Of a DNA stretch of 64,000 nt, positions 2,700-59,856 are shown piece by piece. The stretch's first letter is position 1. Every line of letters starts with the position of its first letter. Source of the stretch: Onthophagus taurus (taxonomy: Eukaryota > Arthropoda > Insecta > Coleoptera > Scarabaeidae). The translations under genes were made by a program, and so were the position numbers. The DNA is taken from assembly GCF_036711975.1 (NCBI RefSeq), contig NC_091967.1, forward strand, positions 7,750,001 to 7,814,000. Reading direction: 5' to 3'. The notes under the pieces were generated by a model. That model was not told where the DNA came from and ran no database searches. It saw nothing but the letters and a program-made list of their open reading frames with translations.

Positions 2700-4540
2700 G
2701 CGACTCCGGACAATGATGAGAACGCAATCGGTGATGTCATAAAGAATGTAATTAGCATAAATATAATAACGTTTGAGGAAATAGGTATTTTTGTTGAAAT
2801 AGGCGTTTCTTTATCTTGAAATTGATAAGAAATATACTTTTCCTTGTTTGTAATCGTGTCATAAATAAGTTTATGTAATATTCGTACGACTAAAAACGAT
2901 TATCATTGAAATTTATTATTGTTAAAAACTTTATTATTAGGTATGATGTCATTTTTAATTCTAAAATTTAATCGTTTTAGGATTCTTTATAAAATGAAAT
3001 TAATTGAATTTATTATTGGGGGAGAGAAATTATTATTATAATTTTTATAATTTTTGATGAAAAATCAAAATGTGACGTTTAATGTCAGAATTGACATTTT
3101 AAATGACAGAAATCTACTTTAATTTTTGTGAAATACTATTTTTAAAACGTAGATGGCGATAAAATCAAACTTCAACAAAAATTAAAGTTTTTTTAATCCA
3201 ACGTCGTTTTAGAGGAAGTAACAATAAAACGATTACATAAAGCTTATTCCGTTTGTATGTCATCGAACATCACTTTCATATCGTTCCCTCGCACACATTC
3301 CCTTTGTAAAACACATAATGCACGCGTTTCCGGACAACTGTAACATACTCCAGAAAGGAGAAATGTGTCGTTATGAAAGTTCCGGAAACGTGACGCGGTA
3401 GTTTGCCGTGGTATATATAGCATATATAGTACTAGAAAAGGTGGCTGAATAAAGTAGGGTGGGGCGAGGGGGAGGAGAGTTTAAAGAGTTGTTGGATGCA
3501 TCAATTCGTTTTAGAGAAGTTTCGACCAAGACGAAAACGACGTCGACGGATCCGCAGCCGAAACTCATTATAGTAAATTGTCTAGAAGGATCTTTGTGTT
3601 GTGGAATTAAGCAGAAGGGAAATGTGGAGAAGTGAAACGATAGTGTAATGGGGAAGGGGAATAAATGTAATTGTACATGCAATAACTATTATTCAACGCG
3701 GGTCAGAAAATAATACATGTTTTATGTTTGTTTGAGCAATTATTTAATGTTAAATTACAAAATTACTAAATCTTAGGAAACTAATCATTTAGGAGAAATG
3801 TAAAAATTATGACAAGAGTTAGAATTATTTATTTTAAACTTGAAACGTCAAAACAACGTTTCATCCACAATCACGCTCATTTGATGTTATCAAAAATGAT
3901 TTGACATTTTTTCATCGTAACTCCAGTTTTTGTCAATATCGAATTAAATTATTATAAAACTTATTATAATAGTATTATAAAACTTTAAACCTTGTTTTCT
4001 AAAAAACCTAAAATAATGGAGATACAATCCTTTACGTTTAAGGTACTGATCAGGTACTGATACATACTTTTGTTTACCTGTCACATTTTTGACAAGTGTA
4101 ATTAAGTCAAAAATAGTTAATAAATAGTTAAAAATTGTCAATAAATTGTGCAATTGTCGTGTATTAATCTCACTAAAATATACTCGAGCTTGATTTTAAT
4201 TCAGGATAATTTAATTTTTAATTTTTCACTCTTGTGTATTTACCCCCGATTAATAAATTGACTCCATAAACAGCTATTATATTCAGTTTGCCACTTAAAA
4301 TTCACATCTGGTACAGTTTATAAACAAACTTCTATATGTTGTGATATTAGAATAGGTCAGCTTCTCCGGGGAGGACTTCAATGTGTTCAAAACATTTTGA
4401 ATCGGTAAAATTTATGAGATGACCTTTAAACAGTTTAAAATTTAAAAACAAACTTCCCACGTTTTAATATATTTCCATAACAAAAAATTATATCACCCCA
4501 AAAAAGCAATTTTTTTATTTTATTTATATATTTTTAGGTT
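2700..4540. other. Intergenic, no gene seen
   Basis: No coding exon could be supported. The stretch holds AT-rich DNA, a less AT-rich patch near 3300-3700 with TTCCGGAA-type inverted pieces, an AGATGGCG motif at 3151-3158, and scattered TGACA/TGTCA words that recur throughout the window. Confidence 0.5.
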
Positions 4541-4549
4541 AATTCACCC

Positions 4550-4756
4550 AGAATTATCCCAGCGTAGAGAACTAAATGAAACTACACTGGGCGTCTCTTA
4601 TGTAACGGGCCCACCGATAAAGAAATTTAAATTATCTGAACTTAAAAGACTCATTGTCTCCCTAAAGTTAAGAAATCGACCGGTTACGATCTCATAACCG
4701 GATTGGATCATTCCTGATACAATGGAAAGTGTCCCAGATAACTATGGTGTTGAAAC
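4550..4756 (+). repeat. Jockey-type LINE remnant, left part (RT fragment)
   Basis: Broken-frame translation shows pieces of a Jockey-clade reverse transcriptase: FKLSELKRLI, then KKSTGYDLITG (usual form KKSPGYDLITG), then QWKVSQITMVLK (usual form QWKVAQIIMIPK). The reading stops at the edge of the P element and resumes at 9241, where PNKNK continues directly after MVLK. The copy is clearly dead, with several frame changes. It is 5'-truncated; I see nothing of ORF1 or of the endonuclease. Confidence 0.75.
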
Positions 4757-4877
4757 ATAGACAAAGAAAAGAATATAGATTGCGCTTGTTCCTGCGCGTA
4801 CGAAATAAAACTTAAGAGTTTTGGTCGCGGCCATTTTTATCCAATGTGACTGCAACAGGAATATATTAGCATTTACC
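4757..4877. repeat. Left terminal/subterminal inverted repeat of P element
   Basis: Matches the reverse complement of 9120-9240 in patches. The outer ATAGACAAAG is perfect, AATATAGAT follows, and the inner GGCCATTTTTATCCAAT block is near perfect. Confidence 0.85.
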
Positions 4878-5108
4878 GTCTTTCTCTATTTAGCAAAGCA
4901 GTTGAAGCAGGTCCGTAATAGGAATTTGTAAATTAATTTCCAAGGTAATATTCACACCATTTTAGCACTTAGAAATTGGAAGTATTTTCGTTCTAGGATC
5001 ATTTTGTAATAGTAAAACAAAGAAATGATTAGTTTCGGTAAGCAATGGCGGTCAAAGTATTAAATAAGATATGAAAATAATAAAAATGCCTTCTATTTTA
5101 TAAAATTT

Positions 5109-8100
5109 TTATTGATGGCTAAATAATATAAGTTTGTTCAACTTCTGCCTTACAGGAGAACCCAACATTTTTTCATTGTATAATTTGGCTAAATTGTACA
5201 ATCGAATTTTGACGTAGGATTTTATAATTATTTTAATTAAAAAATATGGATGTTCATCCAATATATCATTTTCCATAAAATGATTTTTTAATGTCGGAAA
5301 TAAATTATTAATATTTCCAGATGTTTTTTCAAATATAGTTTGTGTTACATTATTTATAATGTTTTTATCGCTTGGAATTTTATTTTCCGTTAAGAACATT
5401 ATTTTTCTAATTAATGTCTCTGTGTTCATACACAAATCGACAACCCCTCTCGATGGTATTATCAATCCACCTGAAATTATGAACAATATAATTAGTACTG
5501 TTTCAATAGAAGGAATTTATAATTTACCCATATTTTTTAATAATACAAATTTATAATTTTGGTTGCTGGACTGGCTATCGTCATTATGGAGAGCATTTAA
5601 ACATATATTGCAATGTACAATTTTGGTGGTCATCCTTATTACATAACCACATATGTATGTTACAACATTTTCTGCATACATACTTATAGGAATTTGAGTT
5701 GGTAACATATAATCATGTTCCTGCAATAAATTAATATCGATTTCTTTATATCGATTAGTGTTACATGTTACAATATTATATTTAGCGAGGGATGATGGAA
5801 TGCTTAATACCACTGTCGTATCCAGTACCTTTGCATTACCTCCTTCTAAATTTGGAATATTGCCATGTAACAACAGTTTTTTAAAGGAATAATAAAATTC
5901 TTGACAGGAAGGATTATTATTCCACCCATTTCTTGTCCTACCAAAAACACAAAAAGCAATATTAAGCTAGTTATTAGTACATATATAGTTACTTAGCTTA
6001 CCTTACACAACAGAAAAACAATTCCAAATGGTCTTGACTACATTTGTATGTCAGCAGGTAAGGAATTTTATTTGTTTTTACAAATTCGTCGTATATACCA
6101 ATAATTGAACTTATTGTTATTAACATACCAATTATGGGCGTTTTTTTTCTTGAGGCGCATAAATAGTTTCCCGAGTTATCTCTTAATAATAATAATTCAT
6201 TTTGGGCACCTAATAAATATGGCCTCCAATAAAATTCGTTTCCCTGTCGAAGGGGAGATTTAAAATTTTTACCAAACGGGTTAATTGAATTTAATACGTC
6301 AAACACATTATTAATTCTTTCTAAAAAGTTGATAGTTGCTTGACTATCTTTAAAATCATCCAACATCAAACAGTTTTTTAGAAATTCTAAGGCTTTAGCA
6401 ACACTGTTACTAAATACTTGTGCAGCCAAATTGACCTAAAAAAATTTCAAAAATTAGTTAAAAAACATTTTCTAAATTCTACTGCATGTTGTTTACCTTC
6501 ATTTTTTGATTTTCCCAGTTTATATGGTTTTTTTTCAATTTTGCGGCTATTTTTAAACCTTCTTCTTCTTGCAATTTTTGCAGCTTTACAATGTAATCCC
6601 ATCTTACCATTTCATTTCTGCCATCCACTATAATATTTAATGTTGAGAAATGGTTTCTTAGTAACTTTAGCATATGTGCTGCATCAAATATGGCATAAAC
6701 GTTTTCTTTTGTTGTAGGATGACTAAAACATGGTCTAATATTTCGTAAATCTGACCAGTCACACCCTAACTCTTTAAACATTGCAAAATTGGTATTTGGT
6801 CCATCACACGTAATTGATGGCACTATGACGCCTACTTCATTTAATCTTATTAACGCTTCTTTAACGAGGTTAGCTTTTTCTTGTCCGTTTAAGGATTTTA
6901 TAAAAAAATATCCTATTGGTAATTTCCATTTTTGCGTCAAGCTAACCACCATAAAAACTAACGCCTCTGATGCTGGTTCACGGTCATCATCTTCACTTGG
7001 TATACCGAAATCCACGTAACCAAAACCATTGATGTCTATTTTTTTCTTTATTGCAATTTCATCAAACATTAAAGAACATATGTTTTTAAAGCCTTTTGAT
7101 TCTTGTTGCTTAGTAATAGCATTCAATGTATTTAATGAAATTTGCTGAAAACCAGGTTCACAATTAACAGCGGTGTACCATTTTCTAATTGTAGCTTGAT
7201 GTGGCAATGCCAATTTAAATTCTTTACGAACGTATTCATACGCTCTACTTGAAAAAAAATTTAGTGTCATTGCAAATTTTCGCAGATCAGGGGGATACAA
7301 TTCTCTCGTAATAGCGCCCCGTTGGCTGTTTTTTATGTAGCGTAAAATTAAACTTTTCGGTACACCATCCAATGACCTTTCCAAATACTCAACGCCTGTT
7401 GTTGAAACAAGATTAACATTGCGTAATTTTACAATTACTTGTTTTAGTGACTGAATCTGTTGTCTAAGGCTTTTAATGACTTTTTTTCGGTAAGCTAATT
7501 TCTGATCCTTTTTAGCAATTTTTTTACCTATTCTATGTTTTACGCTGCGAAATTTTTCTAAAGAAGAACTAAAACATTAGGGAGTTAATAAAAAAAGTAA
7601 AATTAAATCAAAATTGACTGTATACCTGTAACTGTGAATACTTTGGATAAATTTCACACGCTTTCTTCTTGTTCCACTAGATGTTCCGCTTCCAGATGAA
7701 TCCAATTGCCTAAAATGTTAAAAGCATATGATAATTGGAATAAAATTTTAGAAAAAATCAATATTACTAACCGTTTAGAACCTCTTCGACTACCATCTCC
7801 ACTTCTATAATTAATTAATAGTTGTATTATAAAAGATAAATTATATTGCAAAGTTTATTCATATAAAAACGAACTTACGAACTACTCATCTCCGGCAGTA
7901 TAGAATCTTCCATTCTTTGATCCGACTCAGGAATATTAAGGAAAGGTAGAGCATTAGGACCTAAACATTTTCTTCCACCTTTTACAATGAAATCTTCTTC
8001 AGTGAAATGTGCTGAACAAATGCGTAATGAACTTTTCCATGTCAAATGTTCCATTCTAATAAGCAACAAATATTTCTTAAACATTTCGCCTTCAGGTAAT

Positions 8101-8248
8101 CTACATCATAAAATTTTATTCATTTTTATATTTATTTCTTTTTATATTTGGTTAAAACAATTTTATATTATTACCTGTGAAATGATATTTCACTCTCTGG
8201 AGGAAGTAACCTCTGAACATTTTTACAATTTGGCACACAACAAGCCAT
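5109..8248 (-). CDS. P-element-type THAP-domain transposase (THAP9-like)
   Basis: Eight coding exons: 8248-8175, 8100-7879, 7804-7772, 7709-7626, 7568-6497, 6435-6002, 5937-5528 and 5470-5109. A noncoding first exon probably ends at 8341. All phases agree and no stop interrupts the 897 codons, giving 896 residues (human THAP9 is about 900). Residues 1-95 form a C2CH THAP zinc finger: MACCVPNC, a conserved W, RICSAHF and a terminal ALPFLNIP. A basic coiled-coil helix follows near 160-195. RNase H-like catalytic acids are placed at about D307 (SLMFDEIAI), D393 (ITCDGPNTNF) and E633 (SQDHLELFF). THAP binds the subterminal repeats; the catalytic core cuts and joins DNA. The element's TIRs and duplication indicate a transposon rather than a domesticated gene. 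Confidence 0.93.
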
Positions 8249-9119
8249 ACTGTAAAATAAATTAAAATAATTAAACAAAAACAATAAATGTTTATACATA
8301 CACTATTATTATGGGAACTAGTGAAAAATGTTTTACTTACCTTTGTAAATTAACACGTTTTAACGTTAATTTAAATCTATTTAAAACCCAAAAGCTATAC
8401 AACTAAACTTAAAAACTATTCTAAGGAAACACTAACTAACGCAAAAATCTAACAACTATAAAAATAAACTAAATAAACTATGTACTAAAAAACACTAAGA
8501 AAAATAATAAGAACACTAAGAAAAATAAGAAGACGCTAAGACAATGAAACAACTACAACGGCGGATAGATCAAGAGTGATGTTGCTTTTAAAAGAAATAT
8601 TTTACCCAACCAACAAATACATTCAGATGTTTGTTTTGTAGGCCTTTCTTACCTGCTAGGGACCCAAATCTATTTTTACATTTTTCAAAGAAAAAACCTT
8701 ATTCTTTTCAGGTAGTTCTTTTTTCTCATTTTATGCAATGCTTTTATTTCAATATTTTATTCCATTATATCAATATATTACATGCCCTGTGATTGAAAAC
8801 AATAAACAATTTCTTCAATGATAATTATTCTAATTTCTTTTAAAGAATTCTTTAAATTGCTATATTGTTATAGTAATTTATTGTTTTAAAGTATTTCAGA
8901 ATAAGAACAATAATCTCCTTCTTGCAACCGTAACAATTCACCATATTAATATGATTATAATCAATTACACACAATGTAATCTATCAATATAATCAATATA
9001 ATTAGCCTATTAAGTTATTGATATAGGTATTTTTAAATATATCACTTATAGGTTAGGTTTTAAGTGAAAAAGGACAAAACAATAACTAACTTACTTCCAC
9101 CCTACTTCCCAGCCATAAA

Positions 9120-9240
9120 CAATGACAGTAGTATATTGCTATCTCAGTCATATTGGATAAAAATGGCCGCAATTAAAACTGTTAAGATTTTTTGGATGCG
9201 CAGTAGACCAAGCCTCATCTATATTACTATCTTTGTCTAT
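9120..9240. repeat. Right terminal/subterminal inverted repeat of P element
   Basis: Partner of 4757-4877. It contains ATTGGATAAAAATGGCC near 9150 and ends in CTTTGTCTAT, abutting the second copy of GTGTTGAAAC. Confidence 0.85.
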
Positions 9241-10015
9241 GTGTTGAAACCAAATAAAAACAAGTGGCTTCTTACTTCCATTGCTTTCAAGAGTTCGAAA
9301 AGCTCTTATTGAAGAGAATGCAGAGCATCATAGTAAACAAAAAGTTAATTCTTAACTATCAATTTGGGATTAGAAAACAGCATGGTACTATACAACAAGT
9401 GCACAGAGTAGTGAGATCAGCAGCTTTTTTAGACGTGTCATAGGCTTTCGACAGAGTATGGCATGACGATCTTATAGCCAAACTTAAAACCATCTATCAT
9501 ATCCAACATGTCTATCACGTCTATTGTTCCTTGAGATGAGATGGCGGATTTTAAATCGAGGTCATAAAACGAGATGCCGTCAACATCAAACGAATCGACA
9601 TCAGTGTCATTTCTGGTTAATTCTGTGGCTTATATATACTGCCATACTGAAACCTGTTTGGAAATACGGTATTCAATTATGGGGCACCGCTAGCGAATCA
9701 AACATTTTACAGCTGCAGCGATATCAGTCTAAAGTTCTTCGACAAATATGTAACGCACCTTGCTTCATACCTAATTACATCTTACATCAAGACCTCGCTT
9801 ACTGTAAAAGAAGTAATTGTCCAGTCAAGTTCCAAATACCTGAAAAGGCTGCAAGTTCATCCAAAACGACTTGCAAAAATTTGTTGTATCGGGCAACTAT
9901 TAAAACATTGAAGCGAAATGACCTACCAGAACTATCCATGTCAGAATAAAGAATGTACCTATCTTTCATTTGTTATACTATATAAAAATGTTATTGTTGG
10001 TCACAACAATAAAAA
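9241..10015 (+). repeat. Jockey-type LINE remnant, right part (RT to 3' end)
   Basis: Continues the LINE split by the P element. Recognisable pieces are LLTSIAF (standing for SLLPLLS), a degraded copy of AFLDVSKAFDRVWHDDL near 9430-9480, and an open segment at 9524-9949 with LKPVWKYGIQLWGTASES, LQRYQSKVLRQI and IPNYILHQDL, typical of the Jockey RT C-terminus. The region ends in an AATAAAAAATCTTGG stretch. Frame changes and stops make it nonfunctional. Confidence 0.8.
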
Positions 10016-42800: not shown

Positions 42801-45800
42801 TTTCTCGAAATATTTCAAATAAAACTTACGTCATTTTACTAAAATAAAACGCACTAATCGAATTTCAATGTTTAACACCTGCAAAAGAAAGTCTATTCCC
42901 CAATATAAAAAAAATAATTTAAACTAACTACCTTTGATCGAGATGTTGCATTTCCACTTTCGTATTAGTCAAAGATTAAGCTTTCGAATGAGACATTGTT
43001 TATCGAAATCGATTGACTGGTTCTCTTATTATAATCAAAATACTATATGTACATGTAAAATCCTATCTAATTGGGGGGTAACTTCGCATAGGTTTAAACA
43101 TAAACGAAATTGACAGTTTTCTTAGTTGCAATAATTTCGAAGAGAGATGAAAATGCGTTGTTTTAAACCAAATTTAAAAAGAATGACTTTTGAAGAATAA
43201 ATTTAAATGCATGAAGAATGTTTTTTATTAAATAATTTATTTCCACATTTATATATAAACGTTTTTTTAATTTTAGATTTGCCGTTTTTGCACTTGGTTC
43301 AAGTGCTTACCCGAATTTTTGTGCTTTCGGCCAATACGTTGATAATTTATTATTGGAATTGGGTGGCGAAAGATTATTAAAAATGGCTTGCGGCGATGAA
43401 ATGTGCGGACAAGAGCAGGCGTTTCGAAAATGGGCCCCCGACGTTTTTAGAGTAAATAAAAAACACTCACAATCAATCGATTCTTAACTTTAAATTAATT
43501 TTTAAAGGTTGCTTGCGAAACTTTTTGTTTGGACGACGACGACGCGTTATTAGAAGCCACGATTACGTTACAAAGCGAAAATTTAAGCTCATCAACCGTT
43601 CGTTTCGTTGAATCGAAACCGAAAGATCTCGTTTCATCACTTTCAAAATGTTATAACAAACAGGTAAATTGATATTGCGGTTTGTATTAAAATTTTTGCA
43701 TTTAAGAATAAAAGTTATTCGGTGAATGTAAAAAAAAGGGCGCAGATGTTCTATGTATAATTTATCTTGGGATTCTTTTTTCTTTTCCCTTTTTTTATTT
43801 CTAAGGGAAAAGAAAACAAAAAGGAGCATAATCTTCGACAGAAAAGAACGATATTTCTTTAAAAGTTTCAATAAACGTCTCCTTTATCGAAACGTTTATC
43901 CTTTAACCTTGAATTCAAAGCTCCTCATACGTTCTTATTTATTCTATTCTATTTTATTTTATTTTATTAAGGTGTATTCAACAAAATTACTTAATCGTAC
44001 CAATTTGCACGGTGAAAAATCGACGAGAGCAACGCTTGCACTTGAATTCGAATGCAATTTGGCGTACAATCCTGGCGATCACGTGGGAGTTTATCCAAAA
44101 AACCGATCGGAAATAGTTGAGAAAATATTGAAACGTCTGAAAGGTGTTAACGATCCCGATGCGTCCGTGGAACTTCAAATTTTAAAGGAAACTCATACAT
44201 CAAATGGTATTAAAACTAATATACCGGGAATTTCGTATAACTCGCAATATATGAATGCTATAACCATAGTTACGAAACTACTATACACTTGTACTGTCCC
44301 ACATAAAATGAAACATAGCTTAATAGTTGGCATTGCGGTAGTTTTGCAAAGGAAACGTTTTGCTTAAAAAAAGTGACGTCCTTATGATAACTCTGAGTTT
44401 CCGTCTTAAGAGATGCACAGCTAAACCCGAATGGTTCTGGTTCTAGGTCTAGCGTTAGTTCTAGTTTTAATTGTTATTTAGCGTTCAATACAACTAAACC
44501 CGAAGATTCTAGTTCTAGGTCTTGTGTTAGTTCTAGTGATAGTGCTAGTGCAAAACCGAGAACTAGAAACATTCAAGTAATGTCAAGTTATATTTACATG
44601 TTGTATTTTATGTGGGACAAAGTAAGTAGGTACGCCCTGGTTTCTATGGAAATATATTTTTGTATATTGCATCTTAAGTGAAATTCACTGTATATTGAAT
44701 GGCACCTAACAAAGAGTTAACCAAGGAAGGTAGAATCTAAACGGACTGATACATACCGGGAATAAGTTCATAGCTCGACGGCCCGTTCGTGACGTCACTT
44801 ATGGGTGGGCAACTATTATTTCACACCTCGAATTAGCAAATTCTTAACCCTCAATTTGACCAACCGGACACCTATTTCGCTAGAAGGATGTAGAAGTCCT
44901 TTTAGATCCTACCATTCTTGGACTTATCAAAATTTCAGTTACATTTTCATTTTTTAGGGGTTATGAAACAATGGTGCCAACATGAAAAAATCCCAACGTG
45001 TTCAACCAGAGAACTTTTTACACGTTATTTAGATATTACAACACCTCCATCCCCCAATTTACTTCAGCAATTCGCCGTTATTGCCAGTGATAAAGAAGAT
45101 CAAAAAAGACTTAATATTTTAGCAAGTGTAAGCTATTATTTAAAAAAAAATATATTTATTTTTTGTTATCATTTTTTATTTTTTAGGATTCAGCTGCTTA
45201 TGAAGATTGGAGACATTGGCGTTTTCCAAATCTATTAGAAGTTTTCGAGGAGTTCCCATCGGTGAACCCTTACGCGCCACTTTTAGTGGCACAATTAAGT
45301 TTATTACAACCGAGATTTTATTCGATATCTTCAAGCAGAGCTGTACACCAAAATCAAATTCATTTAACAGTGGCTGTGGTTTCATACAGAACTCAAGGTT
45401 AACTTTTTTTATATTTTTAATTAACTTTAATCTCGTTTCTATTATTATTATTTAGATGGCGAAGGACCTGTGCATTATGGGGTTTGTTCAAATTACCTTC
45501 AAGATGTCCCCGTAGGCGAAAATGTTTGTTTATTTGTTAGAAGGTATTTTTTTTACTCAATAATATTTGCTTTTTAATTAATATTATTTTGATAGCGCAC
45601 CAAACTTTTATTTACCAACTGATTCAAGTCGACCTATCATTTTGGTTGGACCAGGCACAGGAATAGCCCCATTTAGGGCATTTTGGCAACAACGATTTGC
45701 TTTGGCAAACAATTCAAAACAAAAATTAGGAAAATGTTGGTTATTCTTCGGGTGTAGACAACGCGAATTGGATTTGTACAAGGAAGAAAAGAAGCGGATG

Positions 45801-48190: not shown

Positions 48191-50339
48191 TCACATACTT
48201 TCTTGGGCACGTTCCTCGGCTCTCGCTTTCATCCTAGTTATAAAAGCAGCTCCCTTATTTTTTCTAAAGTTCTCATATGGATCATTCAAACTACATCCAA
48301 CCCCTTTAAATTGATCCTGCCGATCACGCACATCCCCACCGGAAATCGGCGAATCGATTCCTTGCTCATTTACTCCCAACCCACTTCCACCCCACCCCAT
48401 TTTCCTCAACATTTGATGTCCTTTATTACTCGAATCTAATTGTTCTAATTGATGATGGGTTGTTGAAGATATCACCACTGGCGTGCTCACCAGCGGTGAT
48501 GGGGATCTTGAACGCGGGGGACTTTTCGATCTCGTTCTACGACTACTCCGACTACTTCTAGATCGTCTTCTTTTAGGACTCCGAGGCGATCTCGATCTTC
48601 TTGGAGGAGTAGGAGACCGACTTGTGTACCTTCTTTTCGGAGGTGAAGGACTTTTCTCGATTATAATATAAACAGGGCTCGGTGAACGCGATTTTTCTCT
48701 TAACCCAGCCTCGATTTGATCTTCCTTTTCTTTTTTTGCATTATTTTTGGCTTTGTAATATTCGTAAAGACCCAATTTTTCCCAACCTTCCGAGTCTCGG
48801 GGTCTTTCATGCGATGGGGGGGCATAAAACGCTTCCACGGCGGCTAAGAGTCGATCGGAAGGAGGTGCTGGCGGTGGGAGACGAATTAAAGTGGGATCTA
48901 ATGGTTTAAAAGCGGTATCCTCAAGTTTTATTAATGGAACCATTAAACCGGCTGGTAATTCATAATAAGGCACCGATGGCATTAATTCTTCTTGTTGGGG
49001 GGGTTCGGGGTTGGTTATGGGAAAACCAGGGGGTGGTTTTGAAAAATCAGGAAACATTCCTGCAGCTGGGAAATAACCCGGTGGGGGTTGATTAAATTGT
49101 GGAGGCGGGATCGATGGGTTTATATTAATCGGAGGAGGGGGTTGTTGAATCGTTGGCGGGGGAATCTGTGGAGGAATTTGGATTTGCTGTATTTGTTGTT
49201 GTTGAATTTGATTTTGTTGTTCAAGCCTTTGTTGTTCCTCTAAAATATTCGTCCGCCTCTGTTCTAAATCTTGTATATTTTGCGTTGCGTGTCCGACAAA
49301 AACTTGATGCTGCACCCGATACCCTTCAAACGTAGCTTGAGTGACACGAGTGATTTCACCCCCATATTTTGCTATTTGCTGATTAAAATGTTGCTGCAAC
49401 GATTCTTGGGGTTTGCGTAAAGCTTCCACGGTACTTTTAGCTAAATAATTAGCTTTGGATTCCCATAATTGTAACAATTTATCTAATTTTAATTTTTGAT
49501 CCTCCGTAGCGGTCGTTGAAGCTCCACAAAACATGGCAACGACAACCGACTCTAAAGCATCTTTAAGATCTATAGCGCTTTTTCTTGCGCAATGATGTAG
49601 AACATCGTTTACTAAATAAATAACATGTAATCGTTGTAAAAACGAAGCCCCCGGTTGCATTGCTTTTAGCAATAAGCAATTTGCAATGCAAAAAGCTTGG
49701 GGTTTATTCGTAGCGTGTGATAATATCCAAGATTTACCCGTTTGAATACTATCTTTAGTACAACTTTCAACGATTGGTTGTAAAATTTGTTGTAACTCTT
49801 CAATGTGAACGTTACACTCCCCGGCTTCTTTCTGTAAATCAGTTGTTTGACTCTCAAATATAACATTTTCCATTTGAACTTGTTGTTGTTGCAACAAAAC
49901 CGTGTGTTGAGCTTGTAAATTTTGTTCGCTCTGTTTTATCTGTTCCTTCAAAGCCTCGATTTGTTGATTAATCTGCTCTAAATCGTTAACACCGTTCGAA
50001 TTATTGGGCCAATTCGAATTTTGACTTTGTTGCGGCATGATGATTCCTTGCTGTTTGATGACCGTTTGTTCGGCGTTAACCTTATACTGATAGTAAGCGT
50101 AATATTCGCCTCCGTATAAAAATTGAAACTTTGGATTGCCTTTCTGTTTGTTCTTGGTCATCTGTTCGAACTCGGGCCCATTGCGCGCCACGAACTGCGC
50201 TAATTTGTCGATAATATTTCTTAGTTCGGTATCTGTAAACATGAAGCCATAACCTCAATTTGTACGCGGGGCGTCTTTCGTATGATTTAACGCAACGGGA
50301 CAATTCAAACTCACCTTGCGGCGGTTGCGGCAGGTCCAT
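48191..50339 (-). CDS. CHERP: CHERP, SURP/CID/G-patch splicing factor
   Basis: Exon 1 (50339-50315, MDLPQPPQ) splices to one large exon (50232-48191), giving 688 residues. Order: SURP module about 10-56 (ELRNIIDKLAQFVARNGPEF, FLYGGEYYAYY); coiled Q-rich stretch; CID about 150-295, the RNA polymerase II CTD-interaction fold (KSWILSHATNKPQAFCIANC, LHVIYLVNDVLHHC); polyQ and proline-rich middle; SR-type tail (RSRSPRSPKRRRSRSSR); G-patch about 605-655 (RKMGWGGSGLGVNEQG). Human CHERP is larger (916) but has the same order. First described in ER calcium release, it is now known as a U2 snRNP-associated alternative-splicing factor in the nucleus. The big intronless second exon is unusual only for its length. 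Confidence 0.95.
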
Positions 50340-50924: not shown

Positions 50925-52690
50925 TTAGATTTTATTTTGATCTTCTACATAAGAACAAAATAGCGCATAAAACGGTTCTTTGGTATATTTACTTATGTAA
51001 GTAGTGATTCTTGCAGTGTCCCTAAAAACGATGTTTAACGAGTTATTTTCGGGCGTTAACGTAATTAGTGCTTGTTGTATCTCTTCGTCTTCAGTAACAT
51101 ATTGAGTTTGGCCACCAATTATTTGATTGTTACAGTTAAAATAGATTATTACATCTAATTCTTTTGTATTCCATTTAAAATCGGATAATAACTACAAATA
51201 TAAAAAGTTAGTTTGTAACTATCTTCATTCGACTACATAACCACAACTGTCAAAACTCAAAATAATTATTTACCGAATAGTGCCCTGATTTCCATCTTTG
51301 AACTTCGTATTTTATTCCAGCTTTTTCATCGTCTAAATCCAACTCGGTGTAACATTTTAAAAGTTTAAACATTGATTCTGATTTGAAAATGTCAACTAAT
51401 TCTTTTATCGGTTTAGTAAATTCAGTTTCTGGTAAAACTTCGTATCGGAAACGATTTGGAGGCCCTACCATATCCCATTTTAATGATTCATTCTCGAATT
51501 CGTTACATAACTCCAAGTATTTTGTTGGTACAAAATAATTAGGTAAAGAAATTTCGGAGTTTTCCTCAATTAAATTTTGAATACTTTTTATGTGGTGTTG
51601 ATCTAAATAATCCTCCCAAATCCATTCTGATAATTCAACTGGGATTTTTTTGCTAACATCATACGAGGTTGAAAACAATCCTTCAGTGGGTTCTTTGTAA
51701 ATCGGAGCGACAAATTTATTATTAACATCTCCATGAAACCAGCCGTTTATTGAATATCGAGAGAAATTTTTTTGGGTGACTTCGTCTACTTGGTGATAAG
51801 ATGTTGAAGATACAGGAAACAGAACCAATTGGTTATTAACAGGATAAATTTCGCGAATTGTTTTATGTGGTTGATGAAGATCTGTACAAGATAACAATTG
51901 TAAAGAACCACCCCACGATTGATCCCAATCTTGAACATCAGAAAAATAGAGGACGAAAGCCACCACCCGATCACCGCGTAAATCATCATGAATCAATAAA
52001 TAATCAGTATCTGAGTAATAACTACAAGTAGCTGAGACGGAATGCAAATTAAAATTCATTGTTCTTGAAACCCATGGCATCATTGTTTCTTTTAAAAAAT
52101 TAAAAAAGTTTGTAATATTCTTTGCCTCCAAATGTTTCAAATCACAACTTTGATGAAAATCATACAAATCCATTTTGCGTCTGTTCCAATCAATTTCATA
52201 AAACTCTTGTCGGATTGCTTTTAAAATAGAATCGTCTTCAAAAAGATTATTTAAAACACAAACTTTAAATGGATCAATTATAATTTCGTGTGTTTCACTT
52301 ATTAAGGGTTTATTTGAACTCCATTCTTTAGAAAATTCCTCTAAAAATCCCTTTGAACTTAATTTATTATTTAAAACAGCTTTTATACTTTTGATTTCTT
52401 TAATCGTAGGGGACTTAACTTGATCTATAACAAACATTTTTTTATCTCTTCGCATTTTATTCTTAAATAACTTACAACCCAAAATGGTCGAAAATTTAGT
52501 TCTTTCAACCACTTTACATTCACCTTCCTCTTCATCATCTGAACATGGGAAAGCTTCAGAATCATCTTTCTCCTCCTCGAATGCAGCTTTAGCTTTTCTT
52601 TTTGAACTGCTACTACAGGCTACAACAATTTCTTTTGCAACATTATCATTAAATATATCGCAAACTACCTTGATTAAGCTCTTTATCCAT
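50925..52690 (-). CDS. OGFOD1: OGFOD1, ribosomal prolyl 3-hydroxylase
   Basis: Exons 52690-52669, 52619-51274 and 51191-50925 give 544 residues (human 542). It is an Fe(II)/2-oxoglutarate dioxygenase. The family hydroxylates a proline of ribosomal protein uS12 (RPS23) in nucleus and cytosol and affects translation termination. Visible: iron ligands HxD (LLIHDDLRGD) and the distal His (SSTSYHQVDEV), and the 2-oxoglutarate arginine in SRYSINGWFHG. A second degenerate double-stranded beta-helix domain fills the C-terminal half, as in yeast Tpa1. The first exon (MDKELNQ) is inferred: the large exon has no good in-frame ATG, and a 49-bp GT-AG intron restores frame into a basic leader (SSSSKRKAKAAF). 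The start is therefore the least certain part. Confidence 0.92.
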
Positions 52691-52772
52691 GTTAATTGAA
52701 AATTAAACTTAAAATTAAAAAAATCTTTATTTTTTGAGGTTCTTTTAGGTTAAGTTTGTAGTTTTAGAATGG

Positions 52773-57739: not shown

Positions 57740-59856
57740 ATGGACAATGAACAGCCCCACCAGGAACTTGTCAAGTGTGTCGTGGTGGGTGATACGGCAG
57801 TCGGAAAGACAAGACTCATTTGCGCTCGAGCTTGTAACAAACAAGTCAGTCTAGCACAGCTTTTAGCGACTCACGTGCCTACAGTTTGGGCGATCGACCA
57901 ATATCGAATCTACAAAGATGTATTGGAACGGTCTTGGGAAGTGGTCGATAGCGTCAACGTTTCGTTGCGTTTATGGGACACATTCGGTGACCACGAGAAG
58001 GATCGTCGTTTTGCCTATGGCAGATCTGACGTTGTCCTTCTGTGTTTCAGCATTAATAATCCGGTTTCGTTGCGAAACTGCCGGCTGATGTGGTATCCGG
58101 AAATACGAAGGTTCTGTCCAAACACGCCTGTTTTGTTGGTTGGTTGTAAAAACGATTTAAGATATATGTATAGAGATGAGGCGTATTTATCGTATTTCCG
58201 GGATCGATCACCGTTTGTAAGAGCGACAAGAAAGAGCGATTTGGTCATGCCTGATGAAGCCCGCGATGTTGCCCGAGAACTTGGACTTTATTATTATGAA
58301 ACATCGGTTTTAACGTATTATGGGGTGAATGAGGTATTTGAAAATGCAATCCGAGCCGCGTTAATGGCACGACGACAACAAAGATTTTGGATGACCAATT
58401 TAAAAAAAGTTCAACGACCGTTATTACAAGCACCGTTTCAACCACCACCACCACCTAAACCGGAAGTTGTTATACCAACCAGTATATTTCATGAAAACGC
58501 ACGACAATTATGGTTGGATCGGTCGCATGTTGATGTATTATTGGTGGCGGGGCCTGTTGCATTTCCGGCACATCGGTTCCTCTTATCGGCAGCTAGTCCC
58601 GTCCTTTATCGTTTACTAACTGCCGATTTAATGGCTCGGAGTACAAGCGATTCTAGTATGGTTAGTTCCCTTGGTGATTTCGCCGATGAAACCGAATGTT
58701 TAATGAAAGCGGAGCAAAAAATTTGTAAACGAAGAGCAAGTTGTCAAGGGTTGCCATCTGGAAAAGAATTTGATCATCCCGCTTTTCAATCGATTCGATG
58801 CGTTGATGGGCAAACTATTATCACCGTTAGTAGAATGGTTACTCCAACTGCACTTCAACAATGTCTACATTATGCTTACACGGGATTGTTGGAACATAGA
58901 AATACAGATATTCAAGTAAATATTAATTCATAACCCCAATTATTAGAAATCGTTTTATCTTATCCCGCCATCTAGTGGTCAATCAAGAAATGTTATAAAT
59001 GTCAATGTCACTTTTTAAGTCAAAATTTTTTTTTCTGAATGATAATTAATTTTCATATTTTTAGGAATTACATCGTTTGGCTGAATTATTAGAACTACCC
59101 CATTTACAGTCAATATTAACAACAGATTATCGTTCGGATGAAAATTACGAAATATATCTTCGTCGCCGAATTGGAGATGTTTGTTTAGACCAAGGTTTAT
59201 TTGCTGATGTAATTTTTGAATTGGATGATGGAGCTTGTGCTGCTCACAAACCAATGTTAGCGGCACGTTGTGATGTAATGAAAGCAATGTTTGGTGGTGA
59301 TTTTCGTGAGGGTCAAGCGAAAGTTATTGAATTTCCAGGTGTTCGAGAATACACCTTTCACAAGCTGTTATGCTTCCTCTACACGGACGAAATCCCGGCG
59401 GTTATAGCAGCCCGTTGTGTTAATTTATTAGAATTGGCAAATCGATTATGTTTACCGAGACTTGTGGCTTTGGTTGAACAACGGGTTATTGAAGATTTAG
59501 AACGTTTACCATCAGCGGAAGCAATTGAGCATTGTTTGAGATTATTGGAACCAGTAAAATTGCACAATGCACATCAATTAGCCGATTGGTGTATGAATAA
59601 TTTGTGCGTAAATTACAATAAATTGTGTAAGATGTCGCCACGTAGTTTGAGATTATTGCATCCGGATAATCAGGCGTATTTGGTCGAACACCGTTGGCCC
59701 CCTGTTTGGTATTTAAAAGATTACGATTACTATCAGAAATGTTTGGCGGAACGGGATCGCGAACAGAAACCTACTGTTAAAAACAATTCTGGGTGTTTGT
59801 GCTTTACGCGCAAATCTGAATCTGATCCTGCTATTTCCACCTCCGGTAAACTATGA
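57740..59856 (+). CDS. RhoBTB: RhoBTB atypical Rho GTPase with two BTB domains
   Basis: Two coding exons (57740-58915 and 59065-59856) give 655 residues. Rho-like G domain about 10-215: GDTAVGKT P-loop, HVPTVWAIDQY switch I, WDTFGDHEKDRRFAYGRSD in place of DTAGQ. A proline stretch follows near 235, then BTB1 (about 262-395, split by an insert after LLTADLMARSTSD), BTB2 (about 425-530: LFADVIFELDDGACAAHKP, FGGDFREG) and the conserved tail HRWPPVWYLKDYDYYQKC. RhoBTB proteins hardly cycle nucleotide; they act as adaptors for Cullin-3 ubiquitin ligases. No CaaX box is present, as in the family. A short ATG ORF eight bases upstream (57732) overlaps the start in another frame. Confidence 0.96.
58965..58978. 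promoter_or_regulatory. CTCF-like motif in RhoBTB intron
   Basis: CCGCCATCTAGTGG, reverse complement CCACTAGATGGCGG, is a near-perfect match to the CTCF core consensus. It sits in the intron between the two coding exons. Confidence 0.5.

Follow-up and report, generated by a model that had tools for sequence, protein, structure and literature searches.

A complete, recently moved P-superfamily transposon with an open, predicted eight-exon transposase gene

Positions 4756-9241 of the window (the whole stretch of 64,000 nucleotides analysed here) hold an entire P-superfamily transposon of the cut-and-paste type that moved recently; it is 4,486 bp long and has its gene on the minus strand. We read it with high confidence as an autonomous P-superfamily cut-and-paste DNA transposon that belongs to a low-copy family and has moved recently in this genome, a confidence that we keep because the ends, the copies and the domains carry the reading. 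A preliminary description of this DNA had likewise proposed that the P-superfamily element is whole, encodes an open transposase and could have been active recently. This is supported here by a second insertion, identical in sequence and at an unrelated site, and by an unoccupied related site.

Results

Ends and target site duplication

The ends of the element read CATAGACAAAG...CTTTGTCTATG, starting with CATAG and finishing with CTATG, and they are bordered by an 8-bp target site duplication, TGTTGAAA, at 4748-4755 on the left and at 9242-9249 on the right, which is present as a single copy at an unoccupied related site (L054). Seen alone, the outer sequence at the window site forms a direct repeat of 10 bp, overlapping with the inverted repeat. 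A 10-bp duplication beside the ends first proposed (4757-9240) was considered and rejected, since two of its bases belong to the element ends according to the other copies. The boundaries and the 8-bp duplication are given as above because of the comparison with two further copies, L001 (identical to the window copy) and L003. The preliminary description was therefore right that the element is whole and that both ends and a target duplication are visible, the latter now being resolved to 8 bp, while its boundaries fell one base short on each side.

The terminal inverted repeats (4756-4780, plus strand; 9217-9241, minus strand) match at 22 of 25 positions when the ends are aligned, with a perfect match over the first 11 bases and a weaker similarity that extends to about base 112. 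Inside them, a 26-bp inner inverted repeat (4827-4852, plus strand; 9145-9170, minus strand) matches at 25 of 26 positions and occupies bases 72-97 from the end, at an equal distance on both sides, so that the element has both the terminal and the inner inverted repeats that characterize the P superfamily.

We observe exactly two occurrences of CATAGACAAAG in the window, both at the element ends (mean of 0.03 in shuffled sequences). The shorter ATAGACAAAG of the preliminary description is found exactly only at the two ends, and its 10 matches in the window at up to one mismatch, versus 6.0 expected, are unremarkable. Across the genome, the 25-base end pattern gave 30 matches at up to three mismatches (backward control, 2) and the inner inverted repeat gave 22 (backward control, 0). 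A genome search for further copies by their ends had been put forward as a check, and every end-pattern match with zero or one mismatch (21 matches at 12 places) indeed lies at a family copy; the other nine matches have two or three mismatches.

Copies and movement in the genome

The genome holds at least 55 pieces that match the element, four of which are near-full-length copies: the window copy, L001, L003 and L004. L001 (G000:C10:1923188-1927673) shows zero differences from the window copy over 4,486 bp and lies in the context GATTTCCT/CATAGACAAAG...CTTTGTCTATG/GATTTCCT, with its own 8-bp duplication, and no similarity was found between the flanks of the two copies in 1.0-1.5 kb on each side. 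We conclude that the element moved because the duplications differ and an identical copy exists. The finding of only one copy, which the preliminary description had named as speaking against its reading, is thus not what we observe. The identity of the two copies bounds their age only indirectly and, at insect mutation rates, would allow up to about 100,000 generations.

L003, on C1, is flanked on both sides by the duplication GATTTAAC and differs from the window copy by 26 mismatches and 15 gap positions, and L004 differs from L003 by 2 mismatches over 4,471 bp. Both carry an 11-bp insertion in exon 5, the frameshift of which ends the reading after 485 residues, and this insertion is derived, because it is absent from the relative L018. 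This leaves just two copies with an open frame. Since L003 and L004 occupy different sites with unlike flanks, the frameshifted line has moved as well, presumably by means of transposase made elsewhere. A long copy at C1:20.34-20.36 Mb is broken by indels and inserts.

The 8-bp duplication typical of the superfamily is perfect for the window copy, L001, L003, L011, L012 and L013, and it was not found for L004, L009 (one mismatch), L010, L014 and L018/19. Short copies keep bases 1-343 and approximately 3912-4486 around an unrelated 189-bp middle. Five such copies at C2:30.0-30.5 Mb raised the idea of local hopping, which we rejected: L009, L011, L012 and L013 share their flanks up to the element edge and therefore go back to one insertion copied by segmental duplication, and L010, within the same block, has different junctions. 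With this block counted once, or twice with L010, there are 8 or 9 separate insertions that keep at least one end.

Some copies have additional ends nearby. An extra left end of 57 bp (L003, positions 1443-1499) lies directly beside the near-full copy, and in L004 the first 24 bases are missing and an extra right end of 163 bp is present at 5972-6134; insertion of the element into another copy of itself, with later loss between direct repeats, is a possible origin of these extra ends. The L003 insertion lies between direct repeats of 1,036 bp (403-1438 and the right flank) that are 97% identical and would be about 56 bp apart without the element.

Insertion site and unoccupied related sites

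Both flanks of the element are part of a repeat that has numerous relatives elsewhere in the genome and which we take, from its motifs, to be a non-LTR retroelement; no Pfam match was found in the retroelement fragment to the right of the element (9488-9946). Ten related repeats were fetched, and nine of them align across the joined flanks without the element, a spanning alignment not being found for L057; these empty sites are related sites and not orthologous ones. In L054, a stretch of 33 identical bases contains a single, unaltered TGTTGAAA. Among the remaining element-free repeats, most have at least one change in these eight bases, and small gaps occur at this position in L060 and L063. 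A scan of the window with Rfam and for tRNA genes returned nothing, and a search for telomere repeats gave only an overlapping pair of matches at a single internal position of C3 (backward control, 10).

Transposase gene

The eight-exon, open 896-residue reading of the preliminary description was reproduced on the minus strand, with exons that have GT/AG borders and are predicted to be spliced. Coding exon 1 (8175-8248) holds the start codon and the first part of the THAP domain, and exon 2 (7879-8100) the rest of it with C53 and H56, both assigned from this reading and Pfam. Exons 3 (7772-7804; 33 bp) and 4 (7626-7709; 84 bp) encode the linker. Exon 5 (6497-7568) encodes the helix-turn-helix (HTH) domain, the N-terminal part of RNase H with D307 and D393, and the start of the GTP-binding insertion (Pfam and alignment with P transposase), and exon 6 (6002-6435) the remainder of the insertion domain with D541 and E633 (Pfam and alignments with P transposase and L024). 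Exons 7 (5528-5937) and 8 (5109-5470) are placed by the reading and the L024 alignment, and the stop codon of exon 8 is overlapped by an AATAAA from 5113.

The genome also contains L024, a relative that is read in one open frame; it aligns at 35% identity over residues 226-896, shares the C-terminal end and spans three of the seven joins between exons (at 495, 640 and 776). L064, a further single-frame relative, aligns at 23% over residues 2-774 and poorly in the linker. Exons 3 and 4, both in the linker, are the least supported; the evidence for them is the conservation of splice signals in L018, a relative at 94-95% identity, in which their splice sites are the same and the two exons have zero substitutions.

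A probable 5' UTR intron of 91 nt is predicted at 8250-8340 (minus strand), with the donor ACAAAG/GTAAGT, cut before GTAAGT, and the acceptor TTTTACAG/T just before the ATG. This intron, which had been proposed before, is plausible but falls short of proof: its donor (8341/8340) is the single 9/9 donor on the gene strand of the element and its acceptor lies one base before the ATG, while 29 of 2,000 simple shuffles of the leader also hold such a donor and one donor base is changed in L018 (95% identity).

Transposase domains and catalytic residues

With respect to the encoded protein, Pfam gave six matches above cut-off in the correct order: THAP (PF05485; residues 3-80; 49.1 bits versus a cut-off of 23.9), P-type HTH (PF12017; residues 185-268; 75.2 versus 23), the N-terminal part of RNase H (residues 274-406), the GTP-binding insertion (residues 435-556), the C-terminal part of RNase H (residues 625-659) and THAP9_C (residues 723-872; 27.7 versus 24). 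The split RNase H and its insertion correspond to PF21787, PF21788 and PF21789, an assignment made by sequence only. The protein thus combines the features of a P-superfamily transposase, namely, an N-terminal THAP domain, a P-type HTH and an RNase H fold that is split by a GTP-binding insertion and has D, D and E.

THAP fingers have a C2CH pattern, and in the finger recognized earlier, which exceeds the Pfam cut-off, C3 or C4, C8, C53 and H56 are present. The closest solved structure is the Drosophila P transposase 6p5a (phmmer, E = 4.6e-32, residues 170-667). The three expected catalytic acids that the preliminary description noted are D307, D393 and E633, and in the alignment they fall on D230, D303 and E531, the triad given for P transposase in PMC7776569 and PMC8230255. 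Furthermore, as read off the alignment, D433 and D541 stand opposite D339 and D444, which are described as residues that matter in the fly protein.

Coding constraint

Slower evolution of the exons than of the rest of the element was considered as proof of selection and rejected, since it fails overall: L018/19 differs from the window copy at 76 of 2,635 exon and 11 of 442 intron positions, and L003 at 20 of 2,691 and 2 of 446. Because whole exons are not less divergent than introns, we counted by codon position. An excess of exon substitutions at third codon positions is observed in all four comparisons: L018/19 (39 of 76, P = 9e-4), L003 (11 of 20, P = 0.04), L015 (72 of 138, P = 4e-6) and L016 (22 of 37, P = 1e-3). 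First and second positions are less divergent than the non-coding DNA of the element in one of the four (L018/19, P = 0.011; P = 0.6-1.0 in the other three), and coding constraint therefore rests on the third-position excess. Ka/Ks values are 0.20 (L018/19), 0.20 (L003), 0.19 (L004), 0.20 (L015) and 0.16 (L016), with a synonymous excess (P = 2e-10 to 6e-4) in the four of five comparisons that were tested; these counts left out inserted bases, gapped codons and the 7 stop codons of broken copies. These patterns support the transposase frame as coding, and they do not support strong purifying selection.

Other P-type lines and nearby features

Outside the family of the window, at least 11 stop-free matches to the transposase, with open frames of 619-855 amino acids, were found among the 51 of 501 candidates that were scored, and the genome therefore contains several P-type transposase lines. 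L064 (G000:C11:6042600-6045700) represents another P-superfamily family, whose single open frame spans 855 amino acids. It matches G000:C11:23754909-23758010 over 3.1 kb at an identity that rounds to 100%, and there are many partial copies (69-100%); this family also looks recently mobile. Two P-type fragments at G000:C15:1828491-1830697 and 1833730-1835936 have equal scores and opposite orientation, which suggests an inverted duplication. Beside the P relative at L024, a piece of approximately 348 bp (3555-3902) that is present at dozens of places with 97-100% identity is probably a young short repeat.

Elsewhere in the window we observe pieces of host genes, with a FAD-binding domain (43732-44364), a Surp/CID/G-patch protein (48194-50254), a 2OG-Fe(II) oxygenase with an Ofd1 C-terminal domain (51253-52749) and Ras plus BTB domains (57743-59853). 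The last is presumably RhoBTB-like, and the gene-like names of the pieces between 43732 and 59853 are likewise our assumption.

Discussion

In the mechanism that we propose, the minus-strand gene would be spliced to yield an active 896-residue transposase, the THAP finger and P-type HTH of which would recognize both ends through the 25-bp terminal and 26-bp inner inverted repeats, equally spaced on each side. By analogy with the chemistry of the fly protein, this THAP/DDE transposase would cut and paste the element via its paired ends, probably with the use of GTP and with the long staggered cut that goes with GTP-dependent excision in the superfamily, and the frameshifted and end-only copies may have been moved in trans by an intact copy.

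The alternative that survives best, which we regard as a real but lesser possibility, is a whole family that moved recently and is now silent, either because all copies are repressed (e.g., by small RNAs) or because the identical pair marks the last event before extinction. The low copy number, with four near-full copies, would fit such a family, as would the frameshifts in half of these copies and the one long broken copy, but the two open copies are identical over 4,486 bp. It is rather unlikely, in our view, that we see a P element in mid-invasion, in which the autonomous identical line (window and C10) is still moving while the frameshifted L003/L004 line moves in trans and yields a 485-residue product with THAP and HTH but without the third acid, as a built-in repressor; shortened P proteins act as repressors in Drosophila. 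On this reading, horizontal transfer may have brought the family into the genome.

That the gene is a host-adopted THAP9-like gene whose transposon ends were kept by chance is highly improbable. The THAP9_C match (27.7 bits versus a cut-off of 24) and an open frame with a third-position excess are compatible with adoption, but the intact inverted repeats and 8-bp duplications speak against it, the identical second copy at an unrelated site contradicts it, and the unoccupied related site and end-only derivatives are features that domesticated genes lack. Domesticated THAP9-type genes are described in PMC7776569 as single copy and free of inverted repeats and deleted copies, a description that the window element does not fit. 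Assembly error or segmental duplication, instead of transposition, is an equally remote source of the identical pair, since, even though segmental duplication is known in the family (the four short C2 copies with flanks shared to the element edge), the window and C10 copies differ in their 8-bp duplications (TGTTGAAA versus GATTTCCT) and no flank similarity was found in 1.0-1.5 kb on either side.

The autonomous transposon that we favor is thus a candidate source of a working P-type transposase, found in one genome together with an identical second insertion, a frameshifted sister line and copies reduced to their ends. Should the host be other than a fly, it would add a testable case for the spread, silencing and movement in trans of P elements. 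Knowledge of the superfamily is unchanged and no new principle emerges, while recent activity is well supported.

Comparison with known P-type systems

The fly P element has four exons and is about 2.9 kb long. The window element differs from Drosophila P in its length of 4,486 bp, its eight coding exons, its 26-bp inner repeat located 72 bp from the end and its THAP9_C match, and only residues 170-667 aligned with the Drosophila P transposase (phmmer). It resembles the Drosophila melanogaster P element (6p5a, 6pe2) in the THAP domain, the HTH, the RNase H with GTP-binding insertion, the D/D/E triad and the 8-bp duplications, as well as in having terminal and inner inverted repeats, which measure 31 bp (terminal) and 11 bp (inner) in Drosophila (PMC7776569).

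The preliminary description held that, outside flies, P-like copies are mostly fragments or genes adopted by the host, which is too strong in view of published cases in Anopheles gambiae and zebrafish. In A. gambiae, three P subfamilies are described with proteins of 876-895 residues, and of 15 insertions tested there, 14 are reported to be missing from other colonies (PMC1562414). For zebrafish, P-like elements and an active THAP9 transposase are described (PMC10983969), and one arthropod survey reports P elements in all insects that it investigated (PMC6327564).

Compared by description, the window element is similar to AgaP2, AgaP3 and AgaP12 of A. gambiae in protein length (879, 895 and 876 amino acids there), in its 8-bp duplications and in the occurrence of full-length copies and short derivatives in one genome with evidence of recent movement, but the AgaP elements are described with three putative exons, AgaP3 having an additional intron, and with terminal repeats of 27-31 bp (PMC1562414), so that the eight coding exons found here exceed the number in the Anopheles elements described. 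Zebrafish Pdre2/zfTHAP9, also compared by description, likewise has a full-length THAP9-type transposase within inverted repeats, 8-bp duplications and internally deleted copies (PMC7776569, PMC10983969), with 13-bp terminal and 12-bp inner repeats and 400-bp spacers (PMC7776569). Within the literature searched, and with the Anopheles and zebrafish elements compared by description only, the element represents a new family, of a kind that is well known.
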